Source: a virus
Length of the DNA stretch: 21,038 bases
Direction: 5' to 3' (one strand)
Virus record (IMG/VR): IMGVR_UViG_3300020448_000052
Span: 1 to 21,038 of that record
In this document: one piece after another, positions 3,172 through 20,063 of the stretch
Position numbering within the stretch: the first letter of the stretch is position 1
Layout of the letters: each line of letters starts with the position of its first letter
Notes under the pieces: model-generated
The model's input: only the letters and a program-made list of their open reading frames with translations
Told to the model about the DNA's origin: nothing
The model's database searches: none
Program-made: the position numbers and the translations under genes

Positions 3172-3343
3172 ACTGATTGTCGAGGATGGTGATGTACCTG
3201 ACTTGACATTATATCAAAATAGGATTAAAATATGTAATGACTGTCAGTATAAATCCCCTATTGGGATCTGTACTAAATGTAACTGTGTGCTTGCAGTTAA
3301 AGCACGCTTTCCTATATTCCACTGCCCGATAAACAAATGGTAA
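3155..3343 (+). CDS. small Cys-rich, probable zinc-binding protein
   Basis: This 62-residue protein uses a GTG start inside the last codons of the previous gene (17-base overlap). No ATG is available in the frame before the conserved part. It carries CNDCQ and CTKCNC, then a C-terminal FHCPINKW, giving a CxxC-x(n)-CxxCxC-x(n)-CP arrangement typical of a small zinc ribbon or knuckle. I recognise the overall pattern, with the terminal CP-x-x-KW, from small conserved proteins of T4-like marine phages, but no function is known to me. It sits between structural genes and a 2OG-Fe(II) oxygenase, and the oxygenase start overlaps its stop. Metal binding is inferred from the cysteines only. Confidence 0.6.
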   Translation: MSGQAKLIVEDGDVPDLTLYQNRIKICNDCQYKSPIGICTKCNCVLAVKARFPIFHCPINKW

Positions 3344-3960
3344 TGAGTCCTTTTGCGAACCAACCAGAACCTATAATCACAAAATCTATACATCATGATA
3401 ACTTTATATCTGAGTTTGAGACTAATTTAGATTGTACAGAAGTTATTAAGTATTATCAGTACATTGCAGATAATGGTTTGACTATCAAGAGATACACCGA
3501 GAAAGGTGCTGCTGATACTCAAGTCTTTATGCATGAGTTACCAGTAGAATATTTCCATGATAATCTTGGTCGTCCAGTATTCCAACGTTGGAACTATCTT
3601 ACTGAACAAGCATTGAGAGAATATGTTTATAAGTATGATATTTTAATGGGTCGTAGGTTTCAACATACTATGGCAAAAATCCAAAAGACAGAACCAGGAC
3701 AGGGATATCACGCATGGCATTATGAAGCAACACCTTCAGCACCATATCGTAAGTTAGCAACAATGATCTATTTGAATGATAACTTTGAGGGTGGTGAAAC
3801 AGAATTTTTATATCAACATTGTAGAATAAAACCAAAGGTAGGTAAGTTCGTAATATTTCCCTGTGATTGGGCATGGACACACAGAGGAAATCCTCCCCTA
3901 AATAATGATAAGTATATTGTTACTGCATGGGTAGAAGAATATCCAACGCCAGGACAATAA
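3337..3960 (+). CDS. 2-oxoglutarate/Fe(II)-dependent oxygenase (prolyl 4-hydroxylase-like)
   Basis: This 207-residue protein looks like a viral prolyl-4-hydroxylase-type dioxygenase, which couples 2-oxoglutarate decarboxylation to hydroxylation of a substrate residue. Visible motifs fit the double-stranded beta-helix core: H128-Y-E130 (the HxD/E iron-binding pair), then MIYLNDNFEGGET at ~143-155, a turn before FVIFP, and the second histidine H182 in WTHRGNPP. K192, ten residues on, is a candidate for binding the 2OG carboxylate. Two starts are possible: ATG 3337, or ATG 3343, which overlaps the previous TAA as TAATG; they differ by two residues. It lies among fibre genes, so hydroxylation of a virion protein is a reasonable guess, but the substrate is unknown. 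It is one of three such enzymes in the window. Confidence 0.8.
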   Translation: MVMSPFANQPEPIITKSIHHDNFISEFETNLDCTEVIKYYQYIADNGLTIKRYTEKGAADTQVFMHELPVEYFHDNLGRPVFQRWNYLTEQALREYVYKYDILMGRRFQHTMAKIQKTEPGQGYHAWHYEATPSAPYRKLATMIYLNDNFEGGETEFLYQHCRIKPKVGKFVIFPCDWAWTHRGNPPLNNDKYIVTAWVEEYPTPGQ

Positions 3961-3963
3961 ATA
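3957..3963 (+). promoter_or_regulatory. T4-type late promoter motif
   Basis: ATAAATA overlaps the stop codon of the oxygenase gene and lies 21 bases upstream of the ATG at 3985. T4-like phages use TATAAATA (cyanophages a related motif) as late promoters read by the phage sigma-like factor gp55. The same motif sits 25-28 bases before two other fibre genes here. The call rests on motif and position; AT-rich DNA gives chance matches. Confidence 0.5.
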
Positions 3964-3984
3964 GAAATACTATAACCTGTTCAA

Positions 3985-5016
3985 ATGAGCAAACTCACTG
4001 TAGGTAGTATCGGTGGTATACCTGCATCACTTAATCAATCTTCAATTCCTACAGGACATACGCTGCAGATAAACGGTAATGTATATCATGATGGAACTGG
4101 TGCTTTGCGTCTTCCTACAGGCACAACTGGTCAAAGACCAAGTTCACCTCAACCAGGATATATGAGGTGGAATACATCATTAGGTGCAGTTGAACTCTTT
4201 AACGGAAGCACATGGATACAATATTACGGAGAGAATGGTACATCTAATGCACCATTTACATCAATGGCAAACTTATCGAGTGCTGATCCTGGTTCTGGAT
4301 ATTGGTATGTTAAGTTTGATGGAACTAATACAGAAGAGATTTACGCATATAAAGACCCTAATGGAAAGTATTGGGTCATGGTTGCATCTATCACAGATAA
4401 TACGTCACATGGTCAGTACACAGGTGGTTCAGACTCTTGGTATGGTAACTGGACAACTACATCAACTACTGGTAATGCAAGAGGTGCAATGGGAAATGAC
4501 TTTAAGTCAAATCACTACAGAGGTTGGACAGCAGATGATGTATTGATTATGCAAGGGTTTGCTACATCAGGCACACCTTACGATACATCAACAGAAGTTG
4601 GATATATTACTGGATGTTTTACTAATAGAGGTGGAAACATGTTCCAGATGTTTAATAACTATATCTCTTTAGACAACCATAGTAATATTGGCGGTACAAT
4701 AATTCCAGGTATGCAGTTCTTTAAAGGATCAGCATCAGCATCAGATGGTAGATATAGAGGTAGCAGTGCAGGTGAACTTCAACCTGTAAATTCTTGGCAT
4801 CTATCACCTGCAAACTGTGAAAACTATACTTTCAGTATGATTAACGCACTTGGTTGTTCATCTACAGGTTGTAATGTTGAACACCATGCATGGGTAGGAC
4901 AAACAGGTAACAACTATTCAAATCAAAACTTCCCAGAACCTAACTGGTCTGGTAGTTGGGGAATAAATAATCCTGGTTCTGAAAACCATATGTATTGGTT
5001 ATTCTTTTACGCATAA
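3985..5016 (+). CDS. tail fibre protein with GTTGQRP module and fibrinogen-like C-terminal domain
   Basis: This 343-residue protein has three visible parts. Residues 1-40 are a short N-terminal attachment-like region. Residues ~41-80 are the shared module (LRLPTGTTGQRP, then GYMRWNT and VELFNGSTW). The long C-terminal part begins DPGSGYWYVKFDG at ~101 and continues GKYWVMVASI. It contains W-rich stretches, four cysteines, and ends MYWLFFYA. This order (SGxYW..., a 'W-x-L/M-V-A' strand, NW-TT-S-STG, and an aromatic YWLF end) resembles fibrinogen-related globular domains, which some phage fibres use as carbohydrate-binding tips. That homology is by eye and needs a profile search. A late-promoter motif precedes it, as expected for a virion gene. 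Confidence 0.7.
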   Translation: MSKLTVGSIGGIPASLNQSSIPTGHTLQINGNVYHDGTGALRLPTGTTGQRPSSPQPGYMRWNTSLGAVELFNGSTWIQYYGENGTSNAPFTSMANLSSADPGSGYWYVKFDGTNTEEIYAYKDPNGKYWVMVASITDNTSHGQYTGGSDSWYGNWTTTSTTGNARGAMGNDFKSNHYRGWTADDVLIMQGFATSGTPYDTSTEVGYITGCFTNRGGNMFQMFNNYISLDNHSNIGGTIIPGMQFFKGSASASDGRYRGSSAGELQPVNSWHLSPANCENYTFSMINALGCSSTGCNVEHHAWVGQTGNNYSNQNFPEPNWSGSWGINNPGSENHMYWLFFYA

Positions 5017-9118: not shown

Positions 9119-10781
9119 GTTTATTGATAGCGACTTTATACCTTTCTTAAAGAGACACTCTAACTTATTATACGATCTTTATTTTACTACGAGAATGCCA
9201 CCCTTTATGCAAGATGCAATGGGAGACGTGTTTCGTAGTGTCAATGATGCACAGGGTGCTGCAAAAAATGCATTATATATCTCGCAAGAGACAGGTATCC
9301 CCCTGTCAGCAACTTTCAATAATATATGGGTGAGACCAGACCAAAAGAATCTTGAAACTTTTATCACCAACTTCAAATTTTTATATAATAATGGTGTAAG
9401 ATGTGCAACTATACCTCATACATCATGGGTTTCTACGGGTCAGATACAACGGGAATATCCAGAGTTAGAGATAAAGAATACTATACTTAGAGAAGTATCT
9501 AAACCAAATGAGGTAGTATCACTTGCAAGTGTAGGGTTTCATTATATAAATTTAGATCGTGATGTAATGAGAGACAGACCATTATTAGATCGCATTGTAG
9601 AAGCAAAGAAATATTGTCACAGTAAAGGTAATGATGTAATGCTATCACTCTTAGCAAATGAGCATTGTTGGGGTGGTTGCCCTATCATGCCAGAACATTA
9701 TCAATATAATGCAACAAGAGAAGGAAGTGACCCTCAATACTTCAATAGTACTATAAGTCGTGTGTCATGTTCTAAGTGGGACGCATACGACCCTGCCAGT
9801 GAACTTAAAGCAGCAAACATACCACCTTGGAGAGAAGATTGGGAAGAATTCCTAGATGCAGGTATTGATGTGTTCAAGTTACATGGTAGAGAAGATGCTA
9901 TGAGATTGAAGGAGTCTATGGACATCATAGAAAGATGGGCAAATCATGATAAAATGATGCAACCAACTTTTAGTGAGTACATGGACGATGTGGACATGCC
10001 AGAAGCACCTATAAATATCTGGCGAGAGAAAATAAAATCTTGTAGGTTCGATTGTTGGGATTGCAACTATTGTGAATCTGTGCTAGAATCTAGGTTAAAG
10101 AAGCAAAAACGAAAAGAAATGAATCCACTCGTTGATCTTGCAATAAGATCTATTGATGCTGCTATTGATAATAAATCTAACTTCGATCCAAAAGGATATG
10201 ATGTTCTAGGTTTATCATCAAATAAAGTCAGACACTTACTAAACAACTTATGTCAAGAACGTGGTACTGTATATGTTGATGCAGGTTCTTATATGGGTAG
10301 TACAGTATTTGCTGCTCTGTATAGAAATAGTGCGGTCAAGGCATATGCTATTGATGACTTTCAAGACGAGGTAGTAAAACCTAAACGTAAAGATTTACAT
10401 AAACCTTACGCAGACATAACAAATCCAGTTGATGAGTTCATTAAGAATGCAGAGAAATGGATGAATACTGATTGTTCTATTGGTTTCGCAGTTAAACCTA
10501 TACAGGCAGTTGAGTTTAATCCTCAATATCCCCCTCGTGTTATATTTTATGATGCTGCCAACGATCATAATATGGTTCCAAATTTAGAACATATCCATAA
10601 GTATGCTGATAAAGATTATATACTGGTAGTTGATGATGCAAACTTTGAAGGGGTGATGGACAAAACAAAAGAGTTCACCAAAAACAAAAATGTGATATGG
10701 GATAGAACTATACTTACAGAAACATCAGAAGATGCAAATGATTTCTGGAATGGTGTATATCTCGCAGTGATAGAGAAATGA
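9054..10781 (+). CDS. U32 peptidase/UbiV-like domain fused to a methyltransferase-like domain
   Basis: The frame is open from a TTG at 9027, but ATG 9054 (MRPTTLRTGVFSLPIN) is chosen because it puts the first likely beta strand near the N-terminus; the protein is then 575 residues. The first ~345 residues resemble the U32 family (YhbU/UbiU, YhbV/UbiV, RlhA). They include GVRCATIPH, cysteines C205 and C209, C239, and the diagnostic-looking AGIDVFKLHGRED at ~269-281. A CxxxCxxCxxC cluster follows at 330-340. UbiU/UbiV carry a 4Fe-4S cluster and act in O2-independent hydroxylation, so these cysteines may bind a cluster. From ~382 a second domain follows: GLSSNKVRHLLNNLC, then VDAGSYMGST (408-417, SAM-binding-like), then a conserved D. 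I have seen this type of domain in marine phages as a predicted methyltransferase. Substrates of both halves are unknown. An ATGA overlap joins it to the next oxygenase. Confidence 0.6.
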   Translation: MRPTTLRTGVFSLPINPKLSPEFIDSDFIPFLKRHSNLLYDLYFTTRMPPFMQDAMGDVFRSVNDAQGAAKNALYISQETGIPLSATFNNIWVRPDQKNLETFITNFKFLYNNGVRCATIPHTSWVSTGQIQREYPELEIKNTILREVSKPNEVVSLASVGFHYINLDRDVMRDRPLLDRIVEAKKYCHSKGNDVMLSLLANEHCWGGCPIMPEHYQYNATREGSDPQYFNSTISRVSCSKWDAYDPASELKAANIPPWREDWEEFLDAGIDVFKLHGREDAMRLKESMDIIERWANHDKMMQPTFSEYMDDVDMPEAPINIWREKIKSCRFDCWDCNYCESVLESRLKKQKRKEMNPLVDLAIRSIDAAIDNKSNFDPKGYDVLGLSSNKVRHLLNNLCQERGTVYVDAGSYMGSTVFAALYRNSAVKAYAIDDFQDEVVKPKRKDLHKPYADITNPVDEFIKNAEKWMNTDCSIGFAVKPIQAVEFNPQYPPRVIFYDAANDHNMVPNLEHIHKYADKDYILVVDDANFEGVMDKTKEFTKNKNVIWDRTILTETSEDANDFWNGVYLAVIEK

Positions 10782-11281
10782 GCGATATAACAATATCAGA
10801 TAGATTTGTCAAACTCTCGGAGTTTGAAGCAATATATCATGGGTTACTGGACAGTTATTTTCCTTGGAATGCATCTAAGATTGTAGATGATACAAAAGAT
10901 AATAAGCATCGTAATCTACAGATGACTCATATGTTCTATGAGCGTCATACACCTGACAGTTCATGTGAACTTCTATATCCTATCTTGCAGAAGATACAAC
11001 CTTGTGCTATAATCAAGATCAAAGCAAACCTTATCATGGGAACTGATACGTTAGTTGAACATGGTATGCACGTTGATATTCTTGATGCAGAAGATAGAGA
11101 CTATCTTAAAACTTCCCTATATTATATGAATACTTGTGATGGTTACACACTCTTTGAAGATGGTACAAAGATAGATTCGGTTGCTAACCGATTAGTTACA
11201 TTTCCAAATAGTATGAAACACACAGGAACATCAACAACTAACTCATCATTTCGTATGGTAATCAACTTTAACTATGTTTAA
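10778..11281 (+). CDS. 2-oxoglutarate/Fe(II)-dependent oxygenase
   Basis: This 167-residue protein is translationally coupled to the U32-like gene by ATGA. It has the compact iron-binding set of the dioxygenase fold: H98-V-D100 in HGMHVD, a strand TSLYYMNTCDGYTLFEDG (~112-129), then RLVTFPNSMKHTG with H148, and R159 eleven residues on as the likely 2OG carboxylate ligand. The order and spacing match small T4-like phage oxygenases annotated as prolyl hydroxylase-like. Little is present outside the core fold, so substrate choice cannot be guessed from extra domains. It sits between a putative cluster-binding hydroxylase-like protein and a membrane protein; these may share a pathway, but that is inference. 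Confidence 0.8.
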   Translation: MSDITISDRFVKLSEFEAIYHGLLDSYFPWNASKIVDDTKDNKHRNLQMTHMFYERHTPDSSCELLYPILQKIQPCAIIKIKANLIMGTDTLVEHGMHVDILDAEDRDYLKTSLYYMNTCDGYTLFEDGTKIDSVANRLVTFPNSMKHTGTSTTNSSFRMVINFNYV

Positions 11282-12308
11282 AATATTAGAATCAATAGCA
11301 CAGAAGGAACTCTACATGGGTTACATCTTTGGTATTATGATCTTAGGTGGATTTATTAGAGAGTATCATGTATTGAATGATGTTTACTCACTTGCAAAGA
11401 GATATATTAAAGACAACAGGGTGATGATAATTCTCACCTCTATTTTAGGTGGTGTGTTACCTATACCTGGTCGTGTGGCATTGTCAGCACCATTACTAGA
11501 TGCTATAGCACCACCTGATAAGAAGAAGAGGAGTGCATTTGGTATTATTGATTACTTATCTACACATCATTACTATTGGTGGAGTCCATTAGAAAAGACT
11601 ATTATATTGCCTATGGCAGCATTGGGTATAACTTATAGAGAAATGTTAGGTTATACTTTTGTGCCATTGTGTATCTGTTTATTATATACATGGTGGTATA
11701 TATTTTCTAAAGTTGACCCTAGATCAGTTATACCTAACATGGATAATATCCGAGACTTCAACTGGCAGAGGGCATTACGAGGTTGGGCACCCTTTATTGC
11801 TACGATCTGGTTTTTATTGTGTGTAGGTAAGGCAGGTGCTATATTCTTTTTCCCTTGGTTCATAGGTATGGCATGTTATTATAGTATCCTATGTAAAGAT
11901 TGGAGATGGGGTAAATATCTTGATGGTAACTTTGCTATTATTGCAACTGTAGTATTGGCATTAGGTGGTGTTGTAGGTATGATAAAAGAACCTGTTATGG
12001 TATATCTCAAGTCAGCAGACCCGACTATGATTATACCAGTATCAATAGTGGGAGCAGTCGCAGCATGGATTATGGGTTCATCTGGTAAGTATGCAGGAAT
12101 GACATCAGCACTTGTATTAATATTTGGTCAGCAATATCTCGTATGGTTCTTAGCAACAGAATACTCAGGGTATCTACTATCCCCTGCACATAAGTGTTTG
12201 ATGATTGGACAGCAATACTTTGGTACACCTATCAAAAAATACTATAAAGTGTTGGGTGGATTGTGTGCATGGTTAATAGGATACGCATGGTTGACAACAT
12301 TCCTATAG
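11274..12308 (+). CDS. polytopic membrane protein, DUF401/permease-like
   Basis: This 344-residue, strongly hydrophobic protein has about nine to ten membrane segments (roughly 13-29, 48-70, 103-120, 123-145, 170-205 possibly two, 217-237, 250-268, 274-295, 325-344). Four motifs resemble the DUF401 family of integral membrane proteins, related to the ion-transporter superfamily: LPIPGRVALSAPLLD (62-76), WWSPLEKTIILP (102-113), SGKYAGMTSAL (270-280) and GYLLSPAHKCLMI near 299-311. The family normally has LPxPGGxxxSAP and a GxxLSPxHLCL segment. Substrate is unknown. The gene overlaps the oxygenase by 8 bases, so it belongs to that operon. A full-length transporter is unusual phage cargo. A promoter for the next gene lies in its last codons. 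Confidence 0.65.
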   Translation: MFKILESIAQKELYMGYIFGIMILGGFIREYHVLNDVYSLAKRYIKDNRVMIILTSILGGVLPIPGRVALSAPLLDAIAPPDKKKRSAFGIIDYLSTHHYYWWSPLEKTIILPMAALGITYREMLGYTFVPLCICLLYTWWYIFSKVDPRSVIPNMDNIRDFNWQRALRGWAPFIATIWFLLCVGKAGAIFFFPWFIGMACYYSILCKDWRWGKYLDGNFAIIATVVLALGGVVGMIKEPVMVYLKSADPTMIIPVSIVGAVAAWIMGSSGKYAGMTSALVLIFGQQYLVWFLATEYSGYLLSPAHKCLMIGQQYFGTPIKKYYKVLGGLCAWLIGYAWLTTFL

Positions 12309-15322: not shown

Positions 15323-15523
15323 ATGTCATACCTTTACCACTCAGCAATGTTTGGTCTGGAAGAAAAGACCTTACTAAAGAATGCACTTATTAAATATGTC
15401 GCAAGTTTACAAAAACAATACTTTGCGAACAAAACACTTGACAAACACACATACGAAACACAGATGGATTATGTGAGATCATGTGTTGAAAAACTACATC
15501 TAAATGAACTCTATAAATTATGA
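15323..15523 (+). CDS. small helical hypothetical protein
   Basis: This 66-residue protein starts one base after the previous stop and overlaps the next start by ATGA. It is helix-rich and basic (LLKNALIKYVASLQKQYFANK), without a recognised domain. It may be a regulatory or takeover-type small protein, but that is guesswork from position. Confidence 0.6.
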   Translation: MSYLYHSAMFGLEEKTLLKNALIKYVASLQKQYFANKTLDKHTYETQMDYVRSCVEKLHLNELYKL

Positions 15524-16164
15524 GTGGAACTATTGAAATGTTTTGCCCTCAGTGGTATTATCATTCAACTATATCTAATGAATATCAAGAACAAATAAAA
15601 AAATTATTTGACTCGAAAGTATATGATGATAGTATATACACCGCAAGTCCTTGGGATTGCGATTGTATGACTACATTTCAATCAGAGTCAAATATGAAAT
15701 TGCCTTGGAATGATTGGTTAGAGTGCATACGCTTGGATATAGATGATGCTATTGACAAGTTAAAACCAAAGATAGATATTGAAGTCATACCACAGGACGC
15801 ATGGGCAAACAAATATAATCGTGGTCATTTTCAAGAGTATCATACACATGAAGTACCATTTTGTAACTTGAGTATGGTATATTTTTATGACATTCCTGAC
15901 AATGGAGACGTTGGATTCCGATTCTGGTATGATGGTCACTCTAAATATAAGAAATCAGGTTTGGCACAGGCATTTGATATGCCAGTATTTCCAATAGTAA
16001 TACCAAAAGTCAAACAAGGCGACTTTATGTTATTTCCATCACACTATGCACACATGGTTGCACCTAACAGGAATGATAAACCTCGCATTACATTCTCTGG
16101 CAACTTATATGTTGTGCCAAATGATAAAGGGTCACAACGTGACCCCACACCATTGAAAAAATAA
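15520..16164 (+). CDS. 2OG-Fe(II) oxygenase, DUF/2OG-FeII_Oxy_5-like
   Basis: This 214-residue protein is the third dioxygenase here and of a different type from the other two. The core reads DAWANKYNRGHFQEYHTHEV with H108 and H110 (residues ~93-112). Then comes a MVYFYDIP strand, a loop, and the C-terminal part GDFMLFPSHYAHMVAPNRNDKPRI with H178 and R189. This is the arrangement of the family in which WxNxYxxGxxQxxHxH and FPSxxxHxVxPNxxxxxRIS are diagnostic (2OG-FeII_Oxy_5 in Pfam, from memory). Iron ligands would be from HTHE and H178, with R189 holding 2-oxoglutarate. It sits among small early genes rather than with virion genes, so its substrate may differ from that of the oxygenase at 3337. 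It is coupled by ATGA to the gene before. Confidence 0.8.
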   Translation: MSGTIEMFCPQWYYHSTISNEYQEQIKKLFDSKVYDDSIYTASPWDCDCMTTFQSESNMKLPWNDWLECIRLDIDDAIDKLKPKIDIEVIPQDAWANKYNRGHFQEYHTHEVPFCNLSMVYFYDIPDNGDVGFRFWYDGHSKYKKSGLAQAFDMPVFPIVIPKVKQGDFMLFPSHYAHMVAPNRNDKPRITFSGNLYVVPNDKGSQRDPTPLKK

Positions 16165-17368: not shown

Positions 17369-17393
17369 AACCCCTTGCAAAAGGGGTTTTTTT
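17369..17393 (+). terminator. strong intrinsic terminator with GCAA tetraloop
   Basis: AACCCCTT (17369-17376) pairs perfectly with AAGGGGTT (17381-17388) around a GCAA (GNRA) tetraloop, with seven T at 17387-17393. It ends the small-gene transcription unit. The -35 of the next promoter lies in its loop and arm. Confidence 0.9.
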
Positions 17394-17403
17394 AATGTAT
17401 AAT
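17375..17403 (+). promoter_or_regulatory. promoter interlaced with the terminator
   Basis: TTGCAA (17375-17380, 4/6 to TTGACA) and TATAAT (17398-17403, perfect) are separated by 17 bases. TSS would be near 17410, leaving a ~25-base leader before ATG 17435. The -35 is formed by the terminator's loop and stem, and the spacer by its 3' arm and T-run. Confidence 0.7.
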
Positions 17404-17434
17404 AATAATATTGAGACAGTATGTCATTTTTATT

Positions 17435-18688
17435 ATGAAGTTGAGATCACATCAACAGCGAGCATTTGATTCAATGCAAAAGACACCATTTGGACAGATC
17501 ATCATTCCTACAGGTGGTGGTAAGACTTATGTTATGATTGCTGATGCTATCAAACAGTTCCAGTTACCTAGATCACAGACTATTGTTGTAGTTGCACCTC
17601 GCATACTACTAGCAAATCAGTTATGTGCAGAGTTCACAGAGTTCATCACAGAACAGAACTCAAGATTTGGTCTTGACATTGCACACGTTCACTCAGGAGA
17701 GACACATCATTTTTCTACTACAAACCAGTTCGAGTTAAACGAGTGGGTAAACAACAGCACAAAGAACATTCTAATCTTTACAACATATCATTCACTTCAC
17801 AAAGTGTGTAATGCAGTTGATGTAGAAGTTGATACTATCTACTATGATGAAGCACACAATGGTACTAGCAAGAACTTCTTTGAAGCGGTTGCTAGAATGT
17901 CATTTGGTATAGCATATCGTAGGTTCGCATTTACAGCAACACCTAAGTTGGGTAGAGGTGCATCTAAGGAAAGAGGTATGAACAACACTAAGATATGGGG
18001 TCATACATTATGTAATGTAAAAGCACAGGAACTTATTGATACTGGTGCTATACTACCCCCTAAAGTAGTTCCATTTGAGTGTAAGACAGAGAGAAACAAA
18101 GAGAATGCACATGAAGTTGATGCACAAAATTTGATGGATATGCTCACATCATTTGGAGACAATGGACAGAAAGTATTGGTTGCTAGTCCTAGTACCAGAG
18201 TGTTAAACAATATGCTAACAAGAACTTTCATACTTGACTTTTTGTATGAAAACGGTTATGATGTATTACATATCACATCAAAGTATGGTGCTATCATCAA
18301 TGGTAAGAAGGTAGGTAGAGAAGAGTTCTTTGATACTCTTACTCAGTATGGTAATGATAATAATCGTAAGGTTATTATATTTCACTACAGCATACTATCA
18401 GAGGGTATCAATGTCAATGGACTCACTCATACAATACTATTGAGAAACTTACCAACTATCGAAATGGCACAAACTATTGGTCGTGTTATCAGAGTTCACA
18501 AAGATGACAGAGACGCTATTTCCAGTGGTCAGTTGACTATTGGTAACTGGCAGTTCTATAAGAAATCAAGTGGACAGATCACAGTACCAACAGAGAACAA
18601 GTATGGCGATAAGATCGCTAGAAGACTTGAGTCTATTGTTGATTACATATTCAAGGAAGGATTACCCCCTATAGCATACGCATCATGA
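17435..18688 (+). CDS. SF2 DEAD/DEAH helicase, UvsW-like
   Basis: The start is ATG 17435 (MKLRSHQQRAFDSM) rather than the in-frame TTG 17411, because the SF2 'LRxHQ' motif normally stands at the N-terminus of UvsW-like helicases. The 417-residue protein has motif Q-like LRSHQQRA, Walker A PTGGGKT (25-31), YDEAHNG with DEAH at 138-141, FTATP (166-170), LSEGINV (~321-327) and motif VI QTIGRVIRVHKDD (346-358). T4 UvsW (about 500 residues) unwinds recombination and R-loop intermediates and helps switch replication modes. This protein is shorter and lacks an obvious extra N-terminal domain, so it may instead be a restriction-type helicase. It shares ATGA with the nuclease gene. Confidence 0.85.
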   Translation: MKLRSHQQRAFDSMQKTPFGQIIIPTGGGKTYVMIADAIKQFQLPRSQTIVVVAPRILLANQLCAEFTEFITEQNSRFGLDIAHVHSGETHHFSTTNQFELNEWVNNSTKNILIFTTYHSLHKVCNAVDVEVDTIYYDEAHNGTSKNFFEAVARMSFGIAYRRFAFTATPKLGRGASKERGMNNTKIWGHTLCNVKAQELIDTGAILPPKVVPFECKTERNKENAHEVDAQNLMDMLTSFGDNGQKVLVASPSTRVLNNMLTRTFILDFLYENGYDVLHITSKYGAIINGKKVGREEFFDTLTQYGNDNNRKVIIFHYSILSEGINVNGLTHTILLRNLPTIEMAQTIGRVIRVHKDDRDAISSGQLTIGNWQFYKKSSGQITVPTENKYGDKIARRLESIVDYIFKEGLPPIAYAS

Positions 18689-19203
18689 CAGCAAGAAAAG
18701 GTACAGACTCATTTACTACAAGTGAGTCTTTTATTTCAGAGGAAAAACATATATCTCTAGTAGATGAAATCTTTAATGAGTTTAAATCTATAGATGATAA
18801 ATGGAAAATCAAAAAGGGAGTAAGTACAGAGGATATAATCGGAAAAGAAAATGTTGTAAATGCTAAACGCATGGACAATACATCTACTGAAATCCTTAGT
18901 GATGGTGGAATAATATTTTATGATGGTAAGATAGTAGGAGTATGTGAGAACAAATATCAGAAAGATCATAGAAACGCATGTCAAAGAGCATCTATATATC
19001 CATTATATTTTAATATTAAACCTAGTCAAGTCTTTTTATCATGTACTGGAGAAGGATATACATTTGATACAGATAGATGGGGTGGTGGTGCAACAGGTAC
19101 AATGTATGATATAATGAAGGTTAGAGGAACATTTATTATTTTAAATCCAACAGAACAAGAGTTCAAACAAACATTAAGAGATTGGTTTAAGCAACTATTA
19201 TGA
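18685..19203 (+). CDS. PD-(D/E)XK endonuclease, EcoRI-like
   Basis: This 172-residue protein begins on ATGA with the helicase stop and ends on ATGA with the methylase start. Its catalytic signature is LSDGGIIFYDG with D73, then VCENKYQ with E88-x-K90, the D-X(14)-ExK pattern of PD-(D/E)XK nucleases. A helix with RNACQRASIY follows, then VFLSCTGEGYTF (~116-127) and a Gly-rich loop. The order resembles R.EcoRI (D91...E111-x-K113, later a FLEGSNF segment), but it is about 100 residues shorter. A DNA-cleaving role is likely; a specific recognition site is not readable. Because the methylase follows directly, a Type II-like restriction pair is the simplest reading. Confidence 0.7.
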   Translation: MTARKGTDSFTTSESFISEEKHISLVDEIFNEFKSIDDKWKIKKGVSTEDIIGKENVVNAKRMDNTSTEILSDGGIIFYDGKIVGVCENKYQKDHRNACQRASIYPLYFNIKPSQVFLSCTGEGYTFDTDRWGGGATGTMYDIMKVRGTFIILNPTEQEFKQTLRDWFKQLL

Positions 19204-20063
19204 AACCATTATTCATGTGGGCAGGTGGTAAGACAAAATTATTGAAACATTATCAACCTTACTTGCCTAGTTATGTCACTCATTATCATGAACCATTTTT
19301 CGGTGGTGGTGCTATGTTCATATATGTGATGAAAAGATATAAACCTGATAATATACTCATTAATGATATTAACCCAGACATCATGAGAATATACAGAATG
19401 ATAAGAGATAATCATTCTCAGTTTATTAAACACATGGACGAATATCAAGAGAAGTATATACCACTTAGTAAGGAAGATAGAAAGAAATATTATTTCGAGG
19501 TCAGACACGCACACGCATTTGACTATACTGATTGGAGTGAAGTCAAGGAAGCATCTACTCTTTATTTCCTGATGAAAACAGGATTCAATGGCATATATCA
19601 AATCAATCAGAATACTAATGGACGTTATGGTACACCTAGTGGACTTCTTAATCAAAAGGATACTGTTTACGATAAAGAAGTTGTTAAGTGGTGGAGTCAA
19701 GCATTGCAAAAGGTAGAGATAACATCTAAAGATTGGAGAGAAGTCAAAGCACCCCCAACTAAAGTTTACGCATTTCATTTTTTTGACCCCCCTTACAGGA
19801 CATCTTATGCTGATTATGGACATGAGTTCAATGATAAAGATTTACTAGAGTTGATAGATTATGCTAATCAATGCCCACAGGTATTTTTGGCAAACAGGGC
19901 AGATGATGATTTCTTTGAAAAGCAAAAACATAATCTGAATGTAGCATACTTTGACATAACATACACAGCAGGGAGAAGAAAGAAAACTGATTATGGACAT
20001 GTGGCAAAGAGAGCAAAAGAGATTCTACTATACAATGTCAAGGAAGGTGTGACAGTTGTATAA
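19200..20063 (+). CDS. Dam-like D12-class N6-adenine DNA methyltransferase
   Basis: This 287-residue protein transfers a methyl group from S-adenosylmethionine to adenine N6. D12-class (alpha group) motifs are in order: FMWAGGKTKLL (5-15), EPFFGGGAMF (31-40), the region with LNDIN-like ILINDINPD (52-60), KTGFNGIYQINQ (126-137), and the catalytic FDPPY (195-199, DPPY). The C-terminal segment YTAGRRKKTDYGHVAKRAKEILL also fits the class. Length is close to Dam (278 residues). GATC is the common target for the family, but the site is not proven. It may protect phage DNA from the nuclease upstream or from host restriction. An ATGA overlap ties it to the nuclease. Confidence 0.9.
   Translation: MKPLFMWAGGKTKLLKHYQPYLPSYVTHYHEPFFGGGAMFIYVMKRYKPDNILINDINPDIMRIYRMIRDNHSQFIKHMDEYQEKYIPLSKEDRKKYYFEVRHAHAFDYTDWSEVKEASTLYFLMKTGFNGIYQINQNTNGRYGTPSGLLNQKDTVYDKEVVKWWSQALQKVEITSKDWREVKAPPTKVYAFHFFDPPYRTSYADYGHEFNDKDLLELIDYANQCPQVFLANRADDDFFEKQKHNLNVAYFDITYTAGRRKKTDYGHVAKRAKEILLYNVKEGVTVV

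Follow-up and report, generated by a model that had tools for sequence, protein, structure and literature searches.

A probable AATT-specific restriction-modification gene pair in T4-like cyanophages

The window analyzed here, a stretch of 21,038 nucleotides of viral DNA (IMG/VR record IMGVR_UViG_3300020448_000052, positions 1 to 21,038), encodes an EcoRI-like PD-(D/E)XK nuclease and a D12-class adenine methylase that probably make up a Type II restriction-modification pair with the palindrome AATT as its target, borne by T4-like cyanophages (Kyanoviridae). The nuclease would be a small enzyme of the EcoRI fold cutting unmethylated AATT, and the methylase, a Dam relative of altered specificity, would methylate the adenine in AATT and so protect the phage DNA. 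In the infected cell, the nuclease would break up the host chromosome as well as the DNA of incoming rival phages, with the phage's own DNA spared through methylation and the scarcity of AATT sites. This reading of the gene pair, its fold, its motif and its link to AATT draws on sequence comparison and site statistics, and for the fold also on predicted structures.

Gene arrangement across relatives

The initial annotation had described a coupled operon of helicase, nuclease and methylase, and these three open reading frames are indeed present on the + strand, where all features given here lie: a UvsW-type SF2 helicase (17435..18688, 417 aa), the nuclease (18685..19203, 172 aa) and the methylase (19200..20063, 287 aa), joined by two exact ATGA overlaps at 18685-18688 (helicase/nuclease) and 19200-19203 (nuclease/methylase). 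An alternative, longer TTG start of the helicase at 17411 is unnecessary. On the 5' side of the helicase, a terminator-like hairpin (17369-17388) overlaps a promoter-like TTGCAA-17-TATAAT element (17375-17403); both signals, noted previously, exist as sequences, and promoter-like matches occur in the region at about the rate expected by chance (20 versus 16.1 +/- 4.3). The terminator/-10 stretch is well conserved among five aligned relatives with the exception of one, L007, in which the stem is altered and the -35-like TTGCAA is missing. A search of the window for tRNAs and Rfam families returned no match. Elsewhere the window carries three 2OG-Fe(II) oxygenase-like genes (3337-3960; 10778-11281, weakly matched; 15520-16164) and, in the phage structural region, a gene for a DUF401 membrane protein (11274-12308) that also matches phrog_14035, a family of no known function.

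Matches to the ResIII profile (4.8e-21) and to the DNA helicase family phrog_16 (6e-68) bear out the SF2 helicase assignment; the protein shares 65% identity with the helicase annotated in P-RSM4, and part of the MbCM1 copy is annotated as UvsW. A search for the same three-gene order, as had been suggested, recovered it with both overlaps in three IMG/VR contigs (L008, L009 and L010; protein identities to the window: helicase 94%, nuclease 62%, methylase 88%), which places the arrangement beyond chance. This recurrence, together with a helicase match at the majority of the other pair-carrying loci, is what would be expected if helicase, nuclease and methylase acted jointly as a coupled three-component system, either Type I/III-like or a new hybrid, as the initial annotation had considered. 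We regard such a system as very improbable, since the helicase proved separable from the other two genes. In L007 the helicase is 96% identical to that of the window and exactly the nuclease and methylase are missing: the helicase stop codon directly abuts sequence matching the last methylase codons of the window and the region downstream, so that 18689..20047 is absent as one block, which argues that nuclease and methylase are gained or lost jointly, to the exclusion of the helicase. Among Synechococcus phages, S-BM1 and a number of S-RIM2 isolates have the pair upstream of the helicase, the two genes likewise overlapping by 4 bases. Moreover, UvsW-type helicases are present in 433 phage records, most of them without a nuclease match, and in P-RSM4 the helicase is followed by a different methylase. 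As the helicase is common in cyanophages, is found on the other side of the pair in S-RIM2 and S-BM1 and persists without the pair in L007, the functional unit is made up of the last two genes, nuclease and methylase; the adjoining helicase would share their transcription unit by happenstance.

The methylase gene of P-RSM4 (L003 7257-8210) is annotated 'dam', lies directly after the helicase, is unlike the D12 methylase of the window and resembles an N4/N6-type enzyme, suggesting that the site beside the helicase accepts different methylases. It was considered as an ancestral Dam and rejected on account of its N4/N6-type appearance and the absence of a match to the window methylase.

Across the IMG/VR loci of the nuclease family (S-RIM2-type), the nuclease gene has a D12 methylase gene downstream of it in the same orientation, immediately adjacent or no more than about 1.5 kb away, in 38 of 43 cases, a tally that counts one locus cut by a contig end, and three more nuclease loci beyond these 43 also have a D12 methylase. 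Phage GenBank holds 65 records with the nuclease and 64 with the partner D12, from the same Synechococcus phages but not matched record by record; the additional nuclease record is S-CREM2, where a diverged D12 lies nearby. Near its nuclease and methylase, S-CREM2 also has genes annotated as Cas9/Csn1-like and as SAM hydrolase (L014 2305-8781). An extra gene separates nuclease and methylase in S-RIM2 R1_1999 and in some ten loci from IMG/VR. In L005 (3937-4992) this gene encodes 351 aa with a weak DUF6551 match and a DGQH motif; it is missing in some S-RIM2 isolates, in which the pair then overlaps. With the ATGA overlap, the frequent pairing and the joint loss, the endonuclease gene adjoins a methyltransferase gene in the manner of Type II systems, and together with the fold match described below this upholds the earlier proposal of a compact restriction-modification pair.

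Nuclease carriers in which no D12 was found also exist (L051, L054-L057, L001 and L002), several of them fragments. The lack of a nearby D12 in L001, L051 and L054-L057 would suit a lone or selfish nuclease, either of a homing-like type or one that degrades host DNA, located by chance beside a methylase for another site, for example GATC, and so would the signs of exchange at the nuclease gene: the nuclease segment of the window shares 71% nucleotide identity with L008, as opposed to 90% and 88% in the flanks, with a sharp break, which marks it as a likely allele exchange, and the window nuclease is closer to the copy in L001 than to that in L008. We nevertheless consider a solitary nuclease unlikely, given the high pairing rate, the loss of both genes as one unit, the invariant Gln that replaces the GATC-reading Arg of the methylase and the fact that AATT persists solely in records with a D12 or in fragmentary ones. 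The L054 nuclease was examined as a possible pseudogene, and this was dismissed as its stops are located past the gene end. L002 additionally contains a second, distinct pair (3465-4813), in which a gene for a 191-aa REase_II-like protein overlaps an N6_N4 methylase gene; the corresponding position of L001 does not have it.

Nuclease and methylase families

The 172-aa nuclease gave no significant match in Pfam, NCBIfam or PADLOC and a weak match to phrog_2400 (7e-5), for which PHROG lists no function, while in one GenBank record (S-CREM2) the family is already named 'restriction endonuclease EcoRI'. A tblastn search of phage GenBank with the window nuclease found nothing, the bridge to these records being the S-RIM2 nuclease (29% identity), and a pattern scan of bacterial genome contigs detected no relative. 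In an alignment of 32 family members D73-G-G, E88, K90, Q92, N97, A98 and R101 are invariant. These include the D73...E88-x-K90 residues (18901..18954) from which a PD-(D/E)XK protein had been proposed; they correspond to D91, E111 and K113, the catalytic residues of EcoRI, an enzyme that touches the AATT core through Asn141, Ala142 and Arg145 (PMC4081073). The counterpart of the AATT-reading EcoRI segment N141-A-I-E144-R145 is N97-A98-C99-Q100-R101 (18973..18987), in which N, A and R do not vary within the family. At the position of EcoRI E144 the window protein has Gln, in contrast to Glu in all 31 remaining sequences of the alignment, which makes the activity of this copy uncertain, and the enzyme may be weakened.

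In order to place the family relative to EcoRI, profiles and structural models were compared. The S-RIM2-type profile aligns with EcoRI at an E-value of 5e-6 (hhalign), with DGG, E-x-K-x-Q and NAIER in register; the window nuclease is 20-27% identical to this subfamily, in which the link to AATT is strongest. PDB sequence searches with the nuclease alone or with small profiles yielded chance matches only, and the 32-member profile retrieved EcoRI first, at an E-value of 0.2. For the predicted structure of the window nuclease, of modest confidence (pLDDT 65), EcoRI was the top Foldseek match (E 6e-4; VIA Z 7.7). The better model, of a relative's nuclease, aligned to EcoRI 1eri over 147 residues with a VIA-align Z of 12.5, the best non-EcoRI chain reaching 9.1; Foldseek did not list EcoRI for this second model, although VIA-align found it, and MunI was absent among the structural matches listed. 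The comparison with R.EcoRI that had been called for thus points to an EcoRI fold.

The methylase is a D12 enzyme with a DPPY motif, as the initial annotation had recognized: it matches MethyltransfD12 (PF02086) at 5e-33 and scores 146 bits against a cut-off of 115 for the Dam family TIGR00571, with DpnM as the best solved match. In E. coli Dam, Arg124 reads an outer G:C pair of GATC. An Arg at this position is common to E. coli Dam, T4 Dam and DpnM; the window enzyme departs from this Dam type with Q134 (codon 19599-19601), and the same Gln occurs in 44 of 44 related partner methylases. The replacement makes an outer A:T pair, as in AATT, a plausible target of the methylase, and the proposed AATT specificity is suggested by this change together with the retention of AATT where the methylase is present. 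Lys9 of E. coli Dam was tried as a second specificity marker and abandoned, as T4 Dam does not have it and S-CREM2 retains it. A further D12 gene is located at a separate genomic position in S-RIM2, S-BM1 and P-RSM4, which makes the paired methylase of S-RIM2 and S-BM1 an additional copy.

AATT sites in cyanophage genomes

AATT, the sequence cut by MluCI, was proposed as the target from the EcoRI motif before any site was counted. Expressed as observed over expected counts, with the expectation from a Markov model and records that are mostly fragments, AATT ranges from 0.08 to 0.82 in 13 records with nuclease and methylase; among nuclease-free cyanophages it lies at 0.91-0.95 in five, 0.55 in P-RSM1 and 0.70 in MbCM1. 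The depletion is linked to the nuclease (one-sided Mann-Whitney p=0.001, kinship ignored). All 16 flanking contexts of AATT are depleted in pair carriers, which indicates a four-base site. The target suggested by this avoidance in every context, and by the absence of AATT from two related phages, is AATT rather than the six-base GAATTC of EcoRI, so that the likeness to EcoRI drawn in the initial annotation does not extend to that specificity.

Avoidance of a short palindrome could also reflect an AATT restriction system encoded by the host, with the phage nuclease having another specificity or none. The mild AATT deficit of the nuclease-free P-RSM1 and MbCM1 is compatible with this, as are the values within the lineage of the window (window 0.37, L008 contig 0.43, L009 contig 0.48), where a pair-free relative is just as AATT-poor at 0.35 and which alone does not discriminate. 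Likewise most of these phages, with or without the nuclease, are poor in CCGG, AGCT and GGCC; this avoidance, being independent of the nuclease, was taken as background. CCGG occurs 0-1 times against 74-143 expected in P-RSM4, S-P4, Syn30, Syn9, S-CAM22, S-RIM2 and others, with AGCT and GGCC strongly depleted. However, phages recorded on the same host, Synechococcus WH7803, differ threefold in AATT according to the nuclease (S-RIM2 0.31 and S-BM1 0.25 with it, S-P4 0.92 and Syn30 0.93 without), and this speaks against host restriction being responsible. As, in addition, AATT was predicted in advance and is completely absent only from nuclease carriers lacking a detected D12, we judge host restriction to be quite improbable and ascribe the depletion to the phage nuclease.

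The two phages in question, G001 and G002, have the nuclease and no detected D12 methylase, and contain no AATT at all, where 339 sites were expected in G001 (112 kb) and 233 in G002 (74 kb); a further record, G024, matches G001 at 99.99% identity and was not treated as an independent case. Over the 66 kb that G001 and G002 have in common they are about 87% identical and show 8,753 differences, and simulated neutral substitution between them created about 83 AATT on one lineage. Since none is observed, selection against the site appears to be continuing. It is reasonably likely, at somewhat lower confidence than the pair itself, that one lineage keeps an AATT-cutting nuclease and has become self-immune by erasing every AATT, which would turn the enzyme into an unpaired weapon against host or rival DNA, with the methylase-paired form of the window representing the ordinary state.

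Known systems and significance

The proposed pair resembles several known systems in part. EcoRI and MunI, with which MluCI is named together (PMC4081073), are like the phage nucleases in the EcoRI fold, the D...ExK triad and, except for the Q of the window copy, the N-A-x-E-R segment reading AATT, likenesses that extend to MluCI. In contrast to EcoRI, the phage enzymes are short (172-192 aa versus 277), phage-carried and partnered by a D12 (Dam-like) methylase; their probable target is the 4-bp AATT instead of GAATTC, and the window copy has Q for E144. PHROG 2400 and the 'restriction endonuclease EcoRI' of S-CREM2 belong to the same nuclease family; the accessible part of the S-CREM2 paper mentions the methylase and holds no discussion of a restriction-modification pair or target. 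The methylase is like Dam/DpnII-type enzymes in its D12 fold and in passing the family cut-offs, and unlike them in having Gln for the GATC-reading Arg and an EcoRI-like nuclease as partner.

Chlorovirus systems such as CviAII of PBCV-1 likewise combine adjacent, virus-encoded endonuclease and methylase genes with short sites, and their restriction enzymes, a precedent for viral enzymes of this kind, are thought to degrade host DNA, according to the accessible part of one account (PMC7019647), which describes no counterpart of a methylase-free nuclease with total site removal; chloroviruses, unlike cyanophages, infect eukaryotic algae. By analogy with them, host DNA breakdown or exclusion of rivals with self-protection, as the initial annotation had envisaged, would be the probable role of the cyanophage pair, and it is from such analogy only that we infer its biochemical activity and timing, including cleavage and methylation of AATT. 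In a limited literature search we found no earlier report of the AATT target or of AATT-free phages, though one may exist.

The analysis proposes a function and a target sequence for phrog_2400, a family without assigned function in abundant marine cyanophages, and makes directly testable how these phages may spare their own DNA while degrading that of the host. The AATT-free phages would be a naturally occurring example of a nuclease separated from its methylase, with selection powerful enough to clear at least 74-112 kb of sequence of a 4-mer.
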